Both the position numbers and the translations under genes were made by a program. A DNA stretch of 59,140 nucleotides from Alphaproteobacteria bacterium (lineage in GTDB: Bacteria > Pseudomonadota > Alphaproteobacteria > Rickettsiales > JABCZZ01). Positions 24,614 to 58,096 of the stretch are shown in pieces. A model generated the notes under the pieces. The model ran no database searches, was not told the DNA's origin, and saw only the letters and a program-made list of their open reading frames with translations. Numbering within the stretch: the first letter of the stretch is position 1; each line of letters starts with the position of its first letter. The stretch is taken from the NCBI GenBank assembly GCA_013286285.1, contig JABDGA010000005.1:1-59140 (forward strand), in the 5' to 3' direction.

Positions 24614-24966
24614 GATTTTTTTGGCTTGTTTTTATTGTCTACCGTGACAACAGCGGGTTTGTATTTTTTTGCTTCGGTTTCAGTCATGGAGGCGTATGCG
24701 CATATGATGACCAGATCACCTTTCTGTACCAGCCGTGCTGCGGCCCCGTTGACCTGGATATCTCCGTTGCCGCGTTTTTCGCCTTCTATGGCATAGGTGG
24801 TGAAGCGAGAACCCGCTGTAATATTAAGCACGTCCACCTGTTCATACGGAAGTATGCCTGACTTTTCCAGCAACAGCGGATCTATGGTGATGGAACCCTC
24901 ATAGTTGAGATCGCATGCGGTTACCGTTGCCCGGTGTATCTTCGCTTTAAGTAATGTTAAGATCAT
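24610..24966 (-). CDS. panD: Aspartate 1-decarboxylase
   Basis: [42 protein letters not shown]...[17 protein letters not shown]; Gly-Ser processing site present. Confidence 0.95.
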
Positions 24967-25367
24967 ACGTCTATGTTCTCAAAGGTTTCAGGTGTCAGGT
25001 TTCTGGTGTCAACAGAAAGTGATTTTCTAAGGCCATTTAACATACGGCCTATTTCGCCTGTTTGCAATAATATGACGTTTTGTTGCTCTTCCCCAATGTA
25101 TCCTAATTCATAAGCAATGATGATATGCGTTTCCAGCTCAGCCAAAGAACCATAGGATATTTTAAGGAAATTCAGGAACTCTTTTACTGTATTGCGGCTT
25201 CTGCCTTCAGCGATGTTTGCCGGGATTGATACGGAAGCCCGGCGAATCTGGTTGGTTAGTCCATAAAGCTCTTCTTTAGGAAATCCATGGGTTATGCCAT
25301 AAGATGCTTTCACCAATTGAATAGATTTTTTCCATACTTCAAGATCTCTATAACTTTGTACCGCCAT
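24963..25367 (-). CDS. Four-helix bundle protein (S23/23S rRNA intervening-sequence protein family)
   Basis: [53 protein letters not shown]...[25 protein letters not shown] is the family signature; start set at MAVQSY. Confidence 0.9.
24983..25010. repeat. Left heptad array / terminal inverted repeat (AGGTTTC AGGTGTC AGGTTTC TGGTGTC)
   Basis: Four consecutive 7-mers read on the + strand. Confidence 0.9.
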
Positions 25368-25371
25368 AGCC

Positions 25372-26256
25372 TTATCCTGACACCTGACACCTGACACCCG
25401 ACACCTCTTTTTCCACCCATTCCTCACAACATGCTTTTGCCAGCGCCCTTACCCGTGCAATATATGCGGCGCGCTCCGTTACTCCGATAACACCGCGCGC
25501 ATCCAGCAGGTTAAAGCGGTGTGAGGCTTTTATGCATTGGTCATAGGCGGGCAGGGGGATCTTGTGCCTGAGTAAGGCCTGGCATTCCTGTTCTGCGTCC
25601 TTGAACTGCCGTAACAATTGTTCCGTGTCGGCATGTTCAAGGTTATAGGCGGAGAATTCACGTTCGCTTTCAAGGAATACATCGCCGTAAGTCGTTTTTT
25701 CATTGAAGGCCAGATCATAGACGTTTTCCACGCCCTGAATATACATGGCCAGCCGTTCCAGCCCGTAGGTCAACTCGCCTGAAACCGGGTTGCATTCGAT
25801 GCCGCCGACCTGCTGGAAATACGTAAACTGCGTTACTTCCATGCCGTCGCACCATACCTCCCAGCCCAGTCCCCAGGCGCCCAGCGTAGGGCTTTCCCAG
25901 TCGTCTTCCACGAAGCGTATGTCGTGCAGCATCGGATCGATGCCCAACTCGCGCAGACTATCCAGATACAAATCCTGAAGGTTATCCGGTGACGGCTTGA
26001 GGATGACCTGAAACTGGTAATAATGCTGCAGGCGGTTAGGGTTTTCACCGTACCTGCCATCTTTCGGGCGGCGCGAAGGCTGGACATAGGCGCATTTCCA
26101 GGGTTTGTCTCCCAGTGCGCGCAGGGTTGTGGCCGGGTGGAATGTCCCTGCGCCTACCTCCATGTCGTAGGGTTGCAGGATGATGCACCCCTGCCGCGCC
26201 CAGAAATGCTGGAGCGTGAGAATGATATCCTGAAAATGCGCTGCCAGTTTAGCCAT
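25372..26256 (-). CDS. glyQ: Glycyl-tRNA synthetase alpha subunit (C-terminal codons supplied by heptad repeat)
   Basis: [43 protein letters not shown]-terminus [16 protein letters not shown] is encoded by the repeat. Confidence 0.96.
25376..25406. repeat. Right heptad array / terminal inverted repeat (reverse complement AGGTGTC GGGTGTC AGGTGTC AGGTGTC AGG)
   Basis: Four consecutive 7-mers plus 3 bp; 24/28 identical to the left array in inverted orientation. Confidence 0.92.
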
Positions 26257-34974: not shown

Positions 34975-35122
34975 CAAAAATGGTGTCTAATTCTACTGCG
35001 GCTAGCATCTGGATTGCGGATGTATTGAAAAATATACTCATGTACTCTCTGTACACTCCGTCATTTTTCAATACATCCGCTTCCCATCTGCTTTGCTGCA
35101 GCGAATTATCCAGCCATTTTTG
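34975..35122. mobile_element. Putative 148-bp foldback (MITE-like) element between ffs and dnaX
   Basis: Imperfect inverted arms 34975-35033 and 35063-35122; innermost 18 bp perfect (GCGGATGTATTGAAAAAT), outer CAAAAATGG and TAATTC also matched. Confidence 0.6.
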
Positions 35123-37132: not shown

Positions 37133-37633
37133 ATGGCTATGGGACATTACAGTTCTGATGATGAAGCCTATTTTGATAAGGAACAGCAGGCGCATGACGA
37201 TCTGGTTATTGATCATGCGGTGGAAGCTGCCGCAAAAGGGGAGAATGTCGAGCAATTGCTAGAGATCATGCTGGTGTCCATCCCCGCCAACCGAAGAAAT
37301 GCGGTGAAAGCCAAATTCATCGCCGCCCTGAAGAAGCGCGGGCTGAGAGCGCCGTCTAAGGATGCGGATATTCCGTCACGCAAGACGCTGGATCGTCTTC
37401 GCAATGCGCTTACCATTACGGCAAAAGAGGCATATAACCGTGTCCTTGCGCTGGTAGCAGCCCGCCCGGATGTTGCTGCCAGAATCAAGCAGGCAGGCGA
37501 GATATTGGCCAAGAATGGCGTCACCGCTGAAAAAATCCAGATGATAAGGGAGTCCGAGCTGGGAACAATTTCACATAATGCGCCGGGTGTGTCCCAATCT
37601 TTCCGTGATACGGGACAGGGGCGCGGTAACTGA
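37133..37633 (+). CDS. Hypothetical protein
   Basis: 166-aa ORF in tight array after ybaB; no family recognised; not RecR. Confidence 0.65.
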   Translation: MAMGHYSSDDEAYFDKEQQAHDDLVIDHAVEAAAKGENVEQLLEIMLVSIPANRRNAVKAKFIAALKKRGLRAPSKDADIPSRKTLDRLRNALTITAKEAYNRVLALVAARPDVAARIKQAGEILAKNGVTAEKIQMIRESELGTISHNAPGVSQSFRDTGQGRGN

Positions 37634-37646
37634 TATCGGGTAGAGT

Positions 37647-38438
37647 ATGAAAGTATTTTTAAGTTGGTCAGGCCATCGAAGCCATAAAATGGCGCTGATT
37701 CTCAGGGATTGGTTGCCGGATGTATTACAGTCGATTGTCCCTTACGTTTCATCGGAGGATATAGATAAAGGAAAGAGTTGGGAAGCTGAAATTGCCAAAG
37801 AGTTAGACTGCTCGAATTATGGTATTTTGTGCCTGACAAAGGAAAACATAAACGAACCCTGGATTAATTTTGAAGCCGGGGCATTATCAAAACAAATAGG
37901 AAAATCCTTCGTGAGTCCTTTCCTCCTTAACGTAGGGCGTTCAGAAGTAAGTGAGCCAGTACAGAGATTTCAATCGACTATATTTGATAAGGCAGACGTC
38001 AGAAAACTAATCGCTTCCCTTAACAAATCTTGTGTCCCAGCTTTGTCAGAAGACAGAGTAAACAAAATGTTTTCTCTTCTTTATCCCCGCTTAGAAGAAG
38101 AACTGAAATCATTACTGCAGATGAACAAGGGAACAGGCATGGATGAGAAAGCCATGCTTAAAACCGAAAAGCAGGTTGCAGAGCAGGAAAAGATAGAAAT
38201 TGATAGAGAGGCAAAGGCGGCGCATGCAAAAATGGTGCAGGACCATCATGATTTGAAAATGCAATTTACTGCATTCGTTAAACTGACAGAAGAAAATAAT
38301 AGCTTGAAAACGCGTCTTGAGAAACTCGAAAAGGAGAGCGCAATGGAAGCCTGTAAAGAACCATCACTTAAAGTATTATTAGGCTCATTCAGTGCGGATC
38401 TCAAGAGGCCACACACAGAAGATGTCATAAAACCATAA
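37647..38438 (+). CDS. TIR-domain protein with C-terminal coiled-coil-like region
   Basis: MKVFLSWSGHRSHKMALILRDWL...GKSWEAEIAKELDCSNYGILCLTKENINEPWINFEAGALSK. Confidence 0.88.
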   Translation: MKVFLSWSGHRSHKMALILRDWLPDVLQSIVPYVSSEDIDKGKSWEAEIAKELDCSNYGILCLTKENINEPWINFEAGALSKQIGKSFVSPFLLNVGRSEVSEPVQRFQSTIFDKADVRKLIASLNKSCVPALSEDRVNKMFSLLYPRLEEELKSLLQMNKGTGMDEKAMLKTEKQVAEQEKIEIDREAKAAHAKMVQDHHDLKMQFTAFVKLTEENNSLKTRLEKLEKESAMEACKEPSLKVLLGSFSADLKRPHTEDVIKP

Positions 38439-38451
38439 CCGTGTAACTCAT

Positions 38452-39279
38452 ATGAAAATGCAATCCATGGAATCACTTGCGGACCTCTCTCAAAAAAATG
38501 CGGATTTGAGAAGGCAGCTTACCGAACTGTCAACGAAGATAGCGCAAGGGGATGATTATACTATTCCGTTGTCTGCTTCCTTATCCGATTTGGCACTTTC
38601 TGTATCTGACAAGGAAGAGTCGCTTACTCGTCGATATAAGAGAAAAAATCTATTTAATAAGGAACTGGTATTTGAATTTACTAGAGATCCTGGACTTTTA
38701 CATCAGTATTATCAAATCCGTAGCAATGAATATAAGGCTTTTCATGGAGAAGCGTATGAGACTACAGAAAATGAATATGATCGATCCGCGCATATTATGG
38801 TGGCGAGAATCGGGAATTTTTGCGTAGGCGGGGTGCGTATCAACACCAAAACCCCACGCAATAATGGTTTGTTGCCTATGGAAAAAGCCGCAGATTTTAG
38901 GATTGAAGAATATTTTCCGGAATTACGCCATCAGCAGGTTGCCTATGGAGAAGTAGGAGACTGGGTGCTTTTGCCCGAATTCAGGGGAGGTCAAATCTCT
39001 GACGAAATGACAAGAAGAATATTTGAAAAGGCCTCTGCATTAAATATAGAAATGTTATTTGTCCTTACGTCGCCTTTGCAGGCCCGCTTATACAAGCAGG
39101 TTTGCATTGCGATAGGCTTAAAAGATACAATCATACATTATGATATAGCGCTGTCAGGTTATCCTGCGGAAGGAGATAAAAGCTATCTTCTCAGTGTGGC
39201 GCTTGCAAAAAATGCTACAGACCGGCGTGATGATGTATCCAGCCATCACAAACAGAGAATATTGGATGAAGTCCTGTAA
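38452..39279 (+). CDS. GNAT/LuxI (autoinducer synthase or FeeM)-like acyltransferase with N-terminal coiled-coil-like region
   Basis: YYQIRSNEYKAFHGEAYETTENEYDRSAHIMVARIGNFCVGGVRI...EVGDWVLLPEFRGG pattern; 13 bp after the TIR gene. Confidence 0.6.
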   Translation: MKMQSMESLADLSQKNADLRRQLTELSTKIAQGDDYTIPLSASLSDLALSVSDKEESLTRRYKRKNLFNKELVFEFTRDPGLLHQYYQIRSNEYKAFHGEAYETTENEYDRSAHIMVARIGNFCVGGVRINTKTPRNNGLLPMEKAADFRIEEYFPELRHQQVAYGEVGDWVLLPEFRGGQISDEMTRRIFEKASALNIEMLFVLTSPLQARLYKQVCIAIGLKDTIIHYDIALSGYPAEGDKSYLLSVALAKNATDRRDDVSSHHKQRILDEVL

Positions 39280-39343
39280 ATTACATAGCATTTGCGAGTT
39301 ATATAGCTATAAAAAGTGACGGTACACGAGTACAAAAGATTTT

Positions 39344-40390
39344 TTGCGTCTGTGGAATTTGGAAAGAAATTTAATGAACGCAATGCAATGCCGCAAGTTA
39401 AGGTTATTTTATGCGAATAAGCGTGGATTCTGGTCGCTGATATTGCTGGCGGTGCTATTTTTTATAAGCCTGTTCGCTGAATTTATCGCTAATGATAAGC
39501 CGGTTGTGCTGAAGTATCATGGGGCATATTATTTTCCTATTTTCCGATTCTATCCTGAAACCACCTTCGGCGGCGACTTCCAGACGGAGGCGGATTACCG
39601 CGATGCCCATATTGTCCAGAAGATCGCTGCCGATGGCTGGATGATCTGGCCGCTGATACGCTATAGCTATATGACCATCAACTATGATGCGGTCCCGGCG
39701 CCGATGCATCCTACGCCTGATAACCTGCTTGGTACGGACGATCAGGGACGCGACGTACTGGCGCGGCTTATTTACGGTTTCCGCATTTCTATGCTGTTTG
39801 GCATGGCGCTTACTTTCATAAGCTCCATCATCGGTATCACCGCGGGCGCAGTGCAGGGCTATTTCGGTGGCCTGACCGATCTGCTATTCCAGCGTTTCAT
39901 GGAAATATGGGGGGGGCTGCCGGAAATCTACCTCCTGATTATTCTTGCCAGCATTGTGGAGCCGAACATCTGGTGGCTACTCGGCCTGATGGTGCTGTTT
40001 TCCTGGATGGCGCTGGTGCATCTCGTGCGCGCCGAATTCCTGCGGGTGCGCAATTTCGATTATGTCCGCGCCGCACGTGCACTGGGAGTAAGCGAATGGA
40101 AAATAATTACCCGTCATGTATTACCCAATGCGCTGATTTCTACTATCACTTTTATTCCTTTTATCATGAACGGTTCGATTGTAACGCTGACATCGCTGGA
40201 TTTCCTGGGCTTCGGATTGCCGCCGGGATCTCCCTCGCTCGGGGAACTACTGGCGCAGGGAAAGGGCAATCCGCAGGCGCATTGGCTCGGCTTTACCGGT
40301 TTTATTACGCTTGCGGGGATGCTGAGTTTGCTGGTGTTTATCGGCGAAGCGGTGCGTAATGCATTCGATCCCAGAAAGAATGCGGTGTAG
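39344..40390 (+). CDS. yejE: Oligopeptide ABC transporter permease (YejE-like)
   Basis: FISLFAEFIANDKPVVLKYHGAYYFPIF...NLLGTDDQGRDVLARLIYGFRISMLFG; later start at 39374 possible. Confidence 0.9.
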   Translation: MRLWNLERNLMNAMQCRKLRLFYANKRGFWSLILLAVLFFISLFAEFIANDKPVVLKYHGAYYFPIFRFYPETTFGGDFQTEADYRDAHIVQKIAADGWMIWPLIRYSYMTINYDAVPAPMHPTPDNLLGTDDQGRDVLARLIYGFRISMLFGMALTFISSIIGITAGAVQGYFGGLTDLLFQRFMEIWGGLPEIYLLIILASIVEPNIWWLLGLMVLFSWMALVHLVRAEFLRVRNFDYVRAARALGVSEWKIITRHVLPNALISTITFIPFIMNGSIVTLTSLDFLGFGLPPGSPSLGELLAQGKGNPQAHWLGFTGFITLAGMLSLLVFIGEAVRNAFDPRKNAV

Positions 40391-54509: not shown

Positions 54510-55754
54510 TTACCATCGGTGTTCAAAGCGCTTGCGAATCAGCATCGCGGCAGAATTCATAATTGCAAGGACGAGCAGCAGCACGATAATTCCGGCATCC
54601 GTTTTTTCGACAAAACTTTCTTCCGGGCTGGTAGACCAGAGGTAAATCTGCACCGGCATGGAGGTCGCGGGTTCCAGCAGGTTGCACGGTATATCGACAA
54701 TAAATGCGACCATGCCAATCATCAACAGGGGCGCGGTTTCCCCCATCGCACGTGCTATCCCTAATATGGTTCCCGTCATGATCCCAGGGATGGCCAATGG
54801 AAATGTGTGGTGCAGCACTACCTGCAATGGCGATGCGCCAAGCGCCCTTGCAGCATCACGGATGGAATCGGGAATTGCCCGGAGGCTGGCGCGCGTGGCG
54901 ATAATAATAGTAGGAAGAATCATGAGCGCGAGTGTTAGCCCGCCTGCAACTGGGGCAGAACGCGGTATCCCCAGCAGGTTAAGATAGATGGAAAGCCCAA
55001 GCAGGCCGTATACAATGGACGGCACGGCGGCAAGGTTGTTGATGGTGAGTTCGATAAAGGCAGTGATAGACGTTTTTCGAGCAAATTCCTCCAGGTAAAT
55101 CGCCGCCATGACTCCGATGGGAAAGGCGACCACCATGCAGGCAAGCAGGGTAAACAATGACCCCACCATGCTGCCCATGAACCCGGCAAGCTCCGGCTCA
55201 CGCGAATCACCGCCAGTAAAGAAATAGGGGTTCCAGACCGTGCGTACAGCGTTGTCCTTCTGAAGATTTTCCAGCCAGTCAAGCTGTCGGTTGCTTATTC
55301 GGCGATCCGATTCCGGCACCTGTTTCGTAATATGGGATTTCACGGCCCGATCCACTTTGTCGGAAGCAGGCAGCCATAAGGGCAGAGGCTTGCCTACCAT
55401 GGAGGGATCTACAATCAGGGCATCACGCACCGTCTGGACTGCGCCGGAACTTACTAACCCCGCCAGTTCCCGCAAATCGCGGGAACTGTTTCCGGCATCC
55501 GGAAAATGTATAAGCAGCGCTTGTTTGATAAAAGGGCTTACATCGGCATGACGCCAGGCTTTTGTGTCATGACCGACCGCATCGGCATCGATAGTCACCG
55601 TCAGCTGTATTTGCGTAGACAGGAATCCCTGCCAGCCATGCCCGATAATGGTAACCAGCAGAAACAGTAAAACCGTGAGCGCTAGCGCAATCGCGCATTT
55701 GCCATAGAATTGAAAGCGTTTTTCCGCACGGTAACGCGTTGCCATATTACTCAT
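54510..55754 (-). CDS. pstA: Phosphate ABC transporter permease PstA
   Basis: AIYLEEFARKTSITAFIELTINNLAAVPSIVYGLLG...ALGASPLQVVLHHTFPLAIPGIMTGTILGIARAMGETAPLLMIG. Confidence 0.93.
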   Translation of the reverse strand: MSNMATRYRAEKRFQFYGKCAIALALTVLLFLLVTIIGHGWQGFLSTQIQLTVTIDADAVGHDTKAWRHADVSPFIKQALLIHFPDAGNSSRDLRELAGLVSSGAVQTVRDALIVDPSMVGKPLPLWLPASDKVDRAVKSHITKQVPESDRRISNRQLDWLENLQKDNAVRTVWNPYFFTGGDSREPELAGFMGSMVGSLFTLLACMVVAFPIGVMAAIYLEEFARKTSITAFIELTINNLAAVPSIVYGLLGLSIYLNLLGIPRSAPVAGGLTLALMILPTIIIATRASLRAIPDSIRDAARALGASPLQVVLHHTFPLAIPGIMTGTILGIARAMGETAPLLMIGMVAFIVDIPCNLLEPATSMPVQIYLWSTSPEESFVEKTDAGIIVLLLVLAIMNSAAMLIRKRFEHRW

Positions 55755-56676
55755 AGGCTTCCCGATATTTCTTTACGATGCGCAGCGCGGTGAAGTTCAG
55801 GAAAAGCGTTACCATGAAGAGGGTAAGGCCGAGCGCGAATGCGGCAAGTGTCTTAGGACTATCAAACGCCTGATCGCCTACCAGCAGGGATACGATCTGC
55901 GCGGTCACCGTAGTAACGGACGCCAGCGGGTTCAGGGTCATATTGGCGGCAAGGCCCGCCGCCATGACGACAATCATTGTTTCTCCAATAGCGCGCGAGA
56001 TTCCCAGCAAGATAGCGCCCATAATGCCGGGCAGAGCGGCAGGCAGAACAACCTTGCATATCGTTTCGGAACGGGTTGCTCCCAGCGCCAGCGAAGCGTC
56101 CCGCAGCGAAAGCGGGACGGAAGTGATGATGTCGTCCGACAGGGAAGAAATGAAGGGAATAATCATGATTCCCATGACAAAGCCGGCAGATAAGGCGCTT
56201 TCCGTAGCCATATCCATACCCAGGCTTCCGGCCAGTGTTTTAAGAATCGGAGTTACAGAGATAATGGCAAAATAACCGTAAACCACGGTGGGAATGCCAG
56301 CCAGTATTTCCAGCAGTGGCTTAATTATAGCATGCGCGCGGCGGCTGGCATATTCCGCCATGTAAATGGCGGCAAATATCCCGACAGGCACTGCTACCAG
56401 TATGGCGATCACGGTGATCAGCAATGTCCCGGCAAACAGCGGTACGGCACCAAACGTTCCGGAGCCAGCTACTTGATCAGGGCGCATCGCAAGCTGCGGG
56501 CTCCAATGCAGGCCAAACATGAAATCAAAAGGAGGGATAAAATGAAAAAACCTAAGCGATTGAATAAGCACGGTAAGAATAATCGCGGCGGTCACGGCGA
56601 TGGAAAACAGCGCTGAAAGCAGAAACAGCGTTTTCAGCACGTTATCGCCTATAATATTGTTATTCTTCTTGATCAT
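55747..56676 (-). CDS. pstC: Phosphate ABC transporter permease PstC
   Basis: AIYMAEYASRRAHAIIKPLLEILAGIPTVVYGYFA...LPAALPGIMGAILLGISRAIGETMIVVMAAG. Confidence 0.93.
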   Translation of the reverse strand: MIKKNNNIIGDNVLKTLFLLSALFSIAVTAAIILTVLIQSLRFFHFIPPFDFMFGLHWSPQLAMRPDQVAGSGTFGAVPLFAGTLLITVIAILVAVPVGIFAAIYMAEYASRRAHAIIKPLLEILAGIPTVVYGYFAIISVTPILKTLAGSLGMDMATESALSAGFVMGIMIIPFISSLSDDIITSVPLSLRDASLALGATRSETICKVVLPAALPGIMGAILLGISRAIGETMIVVMAAGLAANMTLNPLASVTTVTAQIVSLLVGDQAFDSPKTLAAFALGLTLFMVTLFLNFTALRIVKKYREAYE

Positions 56677-58096
56677 AGGCCTGCAGGTAAATACTAAATG
56701 TGCTGCCTTCCCCTACCACACTGTCAATCGTAAGCACACCGCGATGACGGTTTACAATATGCTTAACAATAGCCAGCCCAAGTCCGGTTCCACCGATGGT
56801 ACGGGTGCGGGCGGAGTCTACGCGGTAAAACCGCTCCGTAAGGCGGGGCAAATGCTGTCGTGGAATGCCTTCGCCGTTGTCAATGACGGCGACGCATACG
56901 CCGCGATGGAGCTTCGCAAAATGAGGCGTTTCGGGTAATGCCGAAGTGACTCGGGCGGTAATGATGACTTCCGTATTGGCATTACCATATTTTATCGCAT
57001 TTCCAATAAGGTTATGCATGACTTGCCTGAGCTCGTTTTCTTCGCCCAGCACTGGCGGAAAATCGTCCGGAATATCCAGTTTTATAGTCATGCCCTTCGC
57101 CTGCGCGGCCCAGGAAAATGCTTCTTTCTCCTTACGTATTACCTGCAGAATATCCGTCTTGCCGTCTGGTGTGGTATGCTCATTCATCTCTATCTTGGAC
57201 AGCGTCAGCAGATCGTCAATCAGATTCTTCATGCGCGTCGCCTGTTCGCCCATGATGGTTAAGAATTGCTCCTGCGCCGCCGGGTCGTTTCTCGCCGGGC
57301 CGAGCAGCGTTTCAATAAATCCTTTGATACTGGCAAGCGGAGTACGGATTTCATGGCTGGCGTTGGCGACAAAATCGGCCCGCATTTTACTGACCCTGCG
57401 AAGCTCGGTAACATCGTTCAAGGTGATAATGGCGGCGATACCTTCTGCAGATGCCGCAGGGAAGGCCTCAATAATCGCCCGGAAGTCACAAGGCTTTGGG
57501 AGATCGGTATGAAATTCAAGGCTGCGCCCGCGCCGCTCCTCCATTACTGCCGCTATCCCGTTGAGCAGTTCGTCGTTAGGAATAATGCCAATCAATGGCT
57601 TGCCCGCAAGATTCTGCCCGAATACCTCACGCGCCATCCGGTTGGTGCGGACAATTTTTTGATCCTTATCGCACATGATGAGAATGTCCGGCAGGGAATC
57701 CACTAATGTTCCATATTCGGTTATCAGGCTGGCTGTATGTTTCTTCTTTTTTTCCCAGGAATGATGCAGGGTAATCAGTGCGGCGGGGAGGTCGCTGATA
57801 GTATTTAAGTGTTTGAAAGAAGGCTCTTCCAGTTGCCGATCCTCTGCCAGATTATTAACGTATTGCGTCAGCGAACTGATATTGGCTAGAAATGGCTTAA
57901 GAATAAAGGCGGTGATAACCAGGATAGTACAGTAGGAATACAGGAATGCATCCAGGGAAAGCGCATCCAGCGCCACTGCGGGAATAAGCGCAATCAAGGC
58001 CGGGCTAGTGATGATCATCAGGGATTTAACCAGTATTCCCCAGGAAAATCCGGCGCGTGTCGGCATATGAGCTATTGTTTCCATCTTATCCGGCAT
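56660..58096 (-). CDS. phoR: PhoR-like phosphate sensor histidine kinase
   Basis: FVANASHEIRTPLASIKGFIETLLGPARNDP, PAS domain, HNLIGNAIKYGN; upstream of pstCA in the same transcription direction. Confidence 0.88.
   Translation of the reverse strand: MPDKMETIAHMPTRAGFSWGILVKSLMIITSPALIALIPAVALDALSLDAFLYSYCTILVITAFILKPFLANISSLTQYVNNLAEDRQLEEPSFKHLNTISDLPAALITLHHSWEKKKKHTASLITEYGTLVDSLPDILIMCDKDQKIVRTNRMAREVFGQNLAGKPLIGIIPNDELLNGIAAVMEERRGRSLEFHTDLPKPCDFRAIIEAFPAASAEGIAAIITLNDVTELRRVSKMRADFVANASHEIRTPLASIKGFIETLLGPARNDPAAQEQFLTIMGEQATRMKNLIDDLLTLSKIEMNEHTTPDGKTDILQVIRKEKEAFSWAAQAKGMTIKLDIPDDFPPVLGEENELRQVMHNLIGNAIKYGNANTEVIITARVTSALPETPHFAKLHRGVCVAVIDNGEGIPRQHLPRLTERFYRVDSARTRTIGGTGLGLAIVKHIVNRHRGVLTIDSVVGEGSTFSIYLQAYDQEE

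Follow-up and report, generated by a model that had tools for sequence, protein, structure and literature searches.

The gene for a TIR-domain protein and that for a GNAT-fold protein lie side by side in the 59,140-nucleotide stretch analysed here (the window), and the arrangement raises the question of whether the two proteins act together as a defence or small-molecule signalling module, as the preliminary description of this DNA proposed, or are neighbours with separate functions. The pair is real, and mostly ordinary.

A gene pair inserted behind dnaX-ybaB

Both open reading frames (TIR, 37647-38438; GNAT, 38452-39279) are intact and in-frame on the plus strand, with 13 bp between them, in a fragmented host assembly (77 contigs, 53% complete). 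The gene order is dnaX, ybaB, a conserved hypothetical gene, TIR, GNAT and an oligopeptide ABC permease gene, with the following features.

37133..37633, plus strand: conserved hypothetical gene, left flank, downstream of dnaX-ybaB
37634..39343, no strand: inserted segment, flanked by the hypothetical gene and the permease gene
37647..38438, plus strand: TIR-domain protein, 263 aa, of the phage AC1 TIR ('TIR-TM') family
37647..38120, plus strand: TIR domain, residues 1-158, from the conserved part of the alignment and the AlphaFold model
37860..37874, plus strand: WxxxE motif, W72-I-N-F-E76, E76 being the predicted catalytic glutamate
38274..38339, plus strand: predicted leucine-zipper stretch in the TIR tail (F210, L213, N217, L220, L224, L227)
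38452..39279, plus strand: LuxI/FeeM-like GNAT-fold acyl-synthase paralogue, 275 aa
38476..38541, plus strand: predicted leucine-zipper stretch at the GNAT N-terminus (L9, L12, N16, L19, L23, L26, I30)
39344..40390, plus strand: oligopeptide ABC permease gene (oppC-like), right flank

The two flanking genes are present in all four genomes of the family. The hypothetical gene has no match in a Pfam search, and the homology of the permease to its family copies starts only at residue 10-16, its true start probably being the ATG at 39374 or a later one. The sister genome G304, from the same genus, has homologues of both flanking genes on the minus strand (hypothetical gene, 56551-57030; permease gene, 55528-56520), and there too they follow dnaX and ybaB in this order. 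Because they are only ~30 bp apart there, against 1710 bp in the window, comparison of the two genomes places the pair in an insertion of ~1.7 kb behind dnaX-ybaB, the exact ends of which (37634..39343) are blurred within intergenic bases. The preliminary description had also judged the two genes by eye to be more AT-rich than their neighbours, and this holds on measurement: GC is 0.407 for TIR and 0.415 for GNAT against ~0.50 around them, GC3 is 0.40 and 0.38 against 0.52-0.61 in six neighbouring genes, and the dip is confined to exactly these two genes.

We considered mobile-element ends at the borders of the insertion and rejected them, as there is no transposase among the open reading frames and no convincing terminal or target-site repeat. 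A search for a promoter or terminator belonging to the pair gave no excess over shuffled sequences and the TIR gene starts 13 bp past the stop codon of the preceding gene, so the pair is likely to be transcribed along with the genes upstream.

The TIR protein

The TIR protein is of the defence type that had been supposed, scoring above the cut-off with Pfam TIR_2 (31.2 bits, cut-off 28) and strongly with PADLOC TIR-TM (273 bits, E 8e-82, profile positions 1-203 of 293). W72 and E76 are invariant across 16 aligned family members, the WxxxE glutamate is conserved in 103/104, and the NAD+ hydrolase AbTIR has WTNYE at the aligned positions; in its fold and its glutamate (W72xxxE76) the protein thus resembles TIR NADases. 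PDB searches with the single sequences of the TIR and GNAT proteins returned nothing; profiles and models gave matches. The AlphaFold model of the TIR protein (pLDDT 79 overall; TIR domain mostly 83-98, with a loop at residues 41-50 at 65) has Foldseek matches to SPARTA TIR-APAZ, TcpB, SARM1 and, at rank 22, SpbK, and it bears out the helical C-terminus that had been read from the sequence, with a long helix predicted at residues 167-236. This tail is unlike those of its relatives and lacks the ILxEILxxxR motif, which 39/104 members carry.

SpbK, from ICEBs1 of B. subtilis, is a single TIR NADase that becomes active once clustered by a phage portal protein, and its E192 is positioned at the NAD+ site (PMC12847820). 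The window protein shares with it the TIR fold and an aromatic-x-x-x-E site, and SpbK is an example of a one-protein defence with activity tied to self-association; however, the TIR domain of SpbK is C-terminal and follows an N-terminal domain of its own, whereas that of the window protein is N-terminal and followed by a coiled-coil tail.

Relatives of the TIR protein and their carriers

Among characterised proteins the closest is the TIR protein of the P2-like phage AC1 (53% identity over 161 aa), encoded in one locus with two membrane proteins. Cloned together, the three genes gave E. coli C protection from lambda, LF82_P8 and P2 (Rousset et al. 2022, PMC9122126). In PADLOC they are called 2TM-TIR, 1TM-TIR and TIR-TM, and the AC1 TIR itself scores 393 bits. 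Although the window protein belongs to the same family, the window locus differs from that of AC1 in lacking the 1TM and 2TM genes, in the C-terminal tail of the TIR protein and in having a GNAT gene next to it. Neither partner was found near the window TIR gene by tblastn (the only 1TM hit, elsewhere, is a chance match of 26 aa), nor was 1TM found across the half-complete host genome. The partners are present at only 3/103 other TIR loci, all three of them near-identical. To judge from these loci, TIR genes of the AC1 family mostly move about unaccompanied by the membrane-protein genes of the original test, and the TIR gene may therefore suffice alone.

Relatives are carried by phages, prophages and plasmids, including 126 IMG/VR viral-contig stretches (80 of which were retrieved) and a 4.7-kb mobilizable Serratia plasmid, where the gene lies beside rep. 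In lambdoid phages they are lone genes between holin and the antiterminator gene Q; two examples (L096:3501-4319 and L099:5001-5816) are oriented opposite to the late genes, and this position is likely to be a lysogen-expressed defence slot. The family is scarce in the class of the host (4/385 genomes), and with the window gene a phage-borne family of TIR defence proteins gains a chromosomal member. Two further relatives have unusual arrangements. One, from a different genome within the order (L075:2932-3696; 31% identity), has a C-terminal C4 zinc finger like that of ClpX (Pfam zf-C4_ClpX, residues 212-247), suggestive of a connection with ClpX or ClpX adaptors, and a 14-kb Acidithiobacillus plasmid encodes three TIR-domain proteins within ~4 kb (L098:3501-7471).

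A LuxI/FeeM-like neighbour of local origin

The 275-residue product of the second gene had been described as GNAT/LuxI-like. By itself it matches no family profile above the cut-off (the best is Acetyltransf_1, E 0.0068), and the assignment comes from its relatives and its model: 19/36 family members match Pfam FeeM, 19/36 match TIGR03694, a PEP-CTERM/exosortase-associated acyltransferase family, and 1/36 matches Autoind_synth, although the window protein itself matches neither FeeM nor TIGR03694. Searched against the PDB with Foldseek, the AlphaFold model (pLDDT 83) has FeeM (2g0b) as its first match (E 2e-8, TM-score 0.72 on the target) and LasI (1ro5) as its third, which argues for the predicted GNAT/LuxI-FeeM fold. 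It nevertheless departs from the FeeM and LuxI proteins in its low identity to them (~14-16%) and in an added N-terminal zipper. In a phylogenetic tree it falls into a 100/99 clade with three other copies from the host family, one of them in the same genome, and we therefore consider the gene a diverged paralogue of local, host-family origin. The histories of the two neighbours as read from these comparisons are thus different, the TIR gene being widely dispersed and mobile and the GNAT gene a paralogue from within the host family.

Relatives of the GNAT protein occur in 48/263 genomes and 30/122 genera of the order, and in only 3/385 genomes of the class sample, all three from the same order. 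Their usual setting is conspicuous: within three genes of the GNAT gene there is a TonB-dependent receptor at 26/36 loci (a direct neighbour at 17), a YfiR/HmsC (DUF4154) gene at 15/36 and a HAMP-HisKA kinase at 10/36. Two host-genus genomes that we checked have only about five such receptors each, so the adjacency of receptor and GNAT genes appears to be far above chance. In G304 the synthase, receptor, YfiR and kinase genes are consecutive on one strand (L039:1450-6806, minus), similar settings are seen at L044, L047, L059, L061, L064 and others, and the second copy of the host genome (L044), which is cut by a contig end, lies beside a TonB receptor and YfiR. Such loci, spread over one bacterial order, are a testable candidate circuit for production and sensing of an acyl signal; a literature search on the combination of synthase, TonB receptor and YfiR found no relevant description. 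At eight of the 36 loci (L043, L045, L046, L047, L051, L056, L060 and L062) glmS adjoins the GNAT-family gene, often with a membrane gene of the LPG_synthase_TM type downstream.

The pair does not recur

No GNAT-family gene is present at the 103 other TIR loci (0/103), no TIR gene is present at the 36 other GNAT loci (0/36), and a literature search on pairing of TIR with an acyltransferase yielded nothing relevant. As the pairing is found nowhere else and a single genome carries it, we regard it as a probable local combination rather than a novel defence system of two genes. Of the preliminary description, the defence-type TIR, the GNAT/LuxI-FeeM neighbour, the AT-richness and the possible coiled-coil contact therefore stand, and the recurrent module does not.

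The reading that we prefer, at a probability of about 0.55, is of a stand-alone TIR of the NADase type acting in abortive infection and co-transcribed with a relocated acyl-synthase paralogue; the NADase activity, abortive infection, acyl product and co-transcription are all things that we infer. The coiled-coil tail would hold the TIR protein as a dimer, a phage cue would cause the TIR domains to cluster, the clustered domains would hydrolyse NAD+ by means of E76, and the loss of NAD+ would halt the infected cell before the phage matures. The GNAT protein would be an extra, diverged copy of a LuxI/FeeM-like N-acyl-amino-acid (or AHL-like) synthase of the host lineage, transcribed with the TIR gene, most likely engaged in acyl-metabolite chemistry and not an obligate partner. 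Several points count against this reading. The close spacing, equal composition and single insertion suggest that the two genes arrived or were kept together, and zippers confined to the two window copies would be expected of proteins that work as partners. Catalysis by either protein is a prediction from sequence and models, and the sole characterised relative, AC1, was assayed along with two transmembrane proteins whose genes are absent beside the window TIR gene.

Predicted leucine zippers and a possible partnership

It had been suggested that the TIR C-terminus and the GNAT N-terminus interact, and such contact is possible, as zippers are predicted in both window proteins; the GNAT N-terminus is coiled-coil-like as described, with a helix predicted at residues 9-31 (pLDDT ~86-91). 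The window copy has the highest heptad score among 100 TIR tails, and among the N-termini of 32 GNAT family members it scores 6.7 against 3.75 for the runner-up, rankings that are suggestive only, as the scoring rule was devised after the sequences had been seen. Both zippers have the pattern L-x3-N-x2-L-x3-L-x2-L, which is found in the window copies only, and this restriction is suggestive of a real partnership. We rejected a duplication of the TIR coiled coil as the source of the GNAT N-terminus, in that 20% of protein shuffles equal the alignment score; the DNA of the two stretches has a single 15-bp repeat in common.

A two-protein module, in which the GNAT protein attaches to the TIR protein by the matched zippers in place of the AC1 transmembrane partners and acts as its sensor, restraint or trigger (by responding to the acyl-CoA/acyl-ACP state or producing an acyl ligand, for example), is the strongest of the alternatives, though we would put it at one chance in several. 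It would account for the spacing, the common AT-richness and the joint insertion as well as for the zipper pattern, but the pair co-occurs at none of the 103 TIR and 36 GNAT loci, and the zippers are alike in composition only. The charges at the e and g positions of the TIR zipper would fit a parallel homodimer best (E216-K221, R223-E228), whereas those of a TIR-GNAT hetero-pair would be mixed, with one E-R attraction and one K-K repulsion. That the pair is a new kind of TIR immune system, with an AHL/N-acyl-amino-acid-synthase-like protein held on the TIR by the zipper as sensor or switch and NADase immunity coupled to acyl signalling, we think decidedly unlikely. Were the two proteins indeed joined by their zippers, the pair would be the first connection seen here of TIR immunity with an acyl-signal synthase.

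Conserved residues of the GNAT protein

The GNAT protein has lost some residues that are common in its family. The ExSR motif reads EVGD (R in 30/36 members), and in the E-D-x-x-D motif N stands in place of D107 (D in 29/36). At what we take to be the LuxI positions the AHL-synthase residue set is incomplete, with R90, D110, R129 and E167 kept and ExSR lost. A protein that has kept the fold and lost the acyl-transfer residues, and is now a scaffold or subject to drift, is accordingly conceivable but improbable, given that R90, E106, D110, R129, E144, E167, F203 and R212 are all kept. The ExSR arginine is also missing from the three other host-family copies, canonical TonB-locus ones included, so its loss is a trait of the clade, and the intact 275-codon frame at the end of a branch of ~0.8 changes per site would speak against simple decay. 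Least probable of all is signalling of the Thoeris kind, put forward for the AC1 TIR by Rousset et al. (PMC9122126) and consistent with a weak match to the ThsB profile (E 0.02), in which the TIR makes a nucleotide messenger for another protein, possibly its neighbour, as effector: the neighbour has an acyltransferase fold and no nucleotide-binding effector domain was seen in it, the nearby open reading frames include no ThsA-like or TM partner, and most TIR relatives are lone genes.

Other features of the window

Between tmk and dnaX there is a 30-nt inverted repeat (35004-35092; 83% complementary, 29-nt loop), possibly a mobile palindromic element. On the minus strand at 24963-25427, adjoining a glyQ-like gene, is a gene for a four-helix protein of the 23S-rRNA-intervening-sequence (IVP) type, which has a weak match to the bAvd profile as well.
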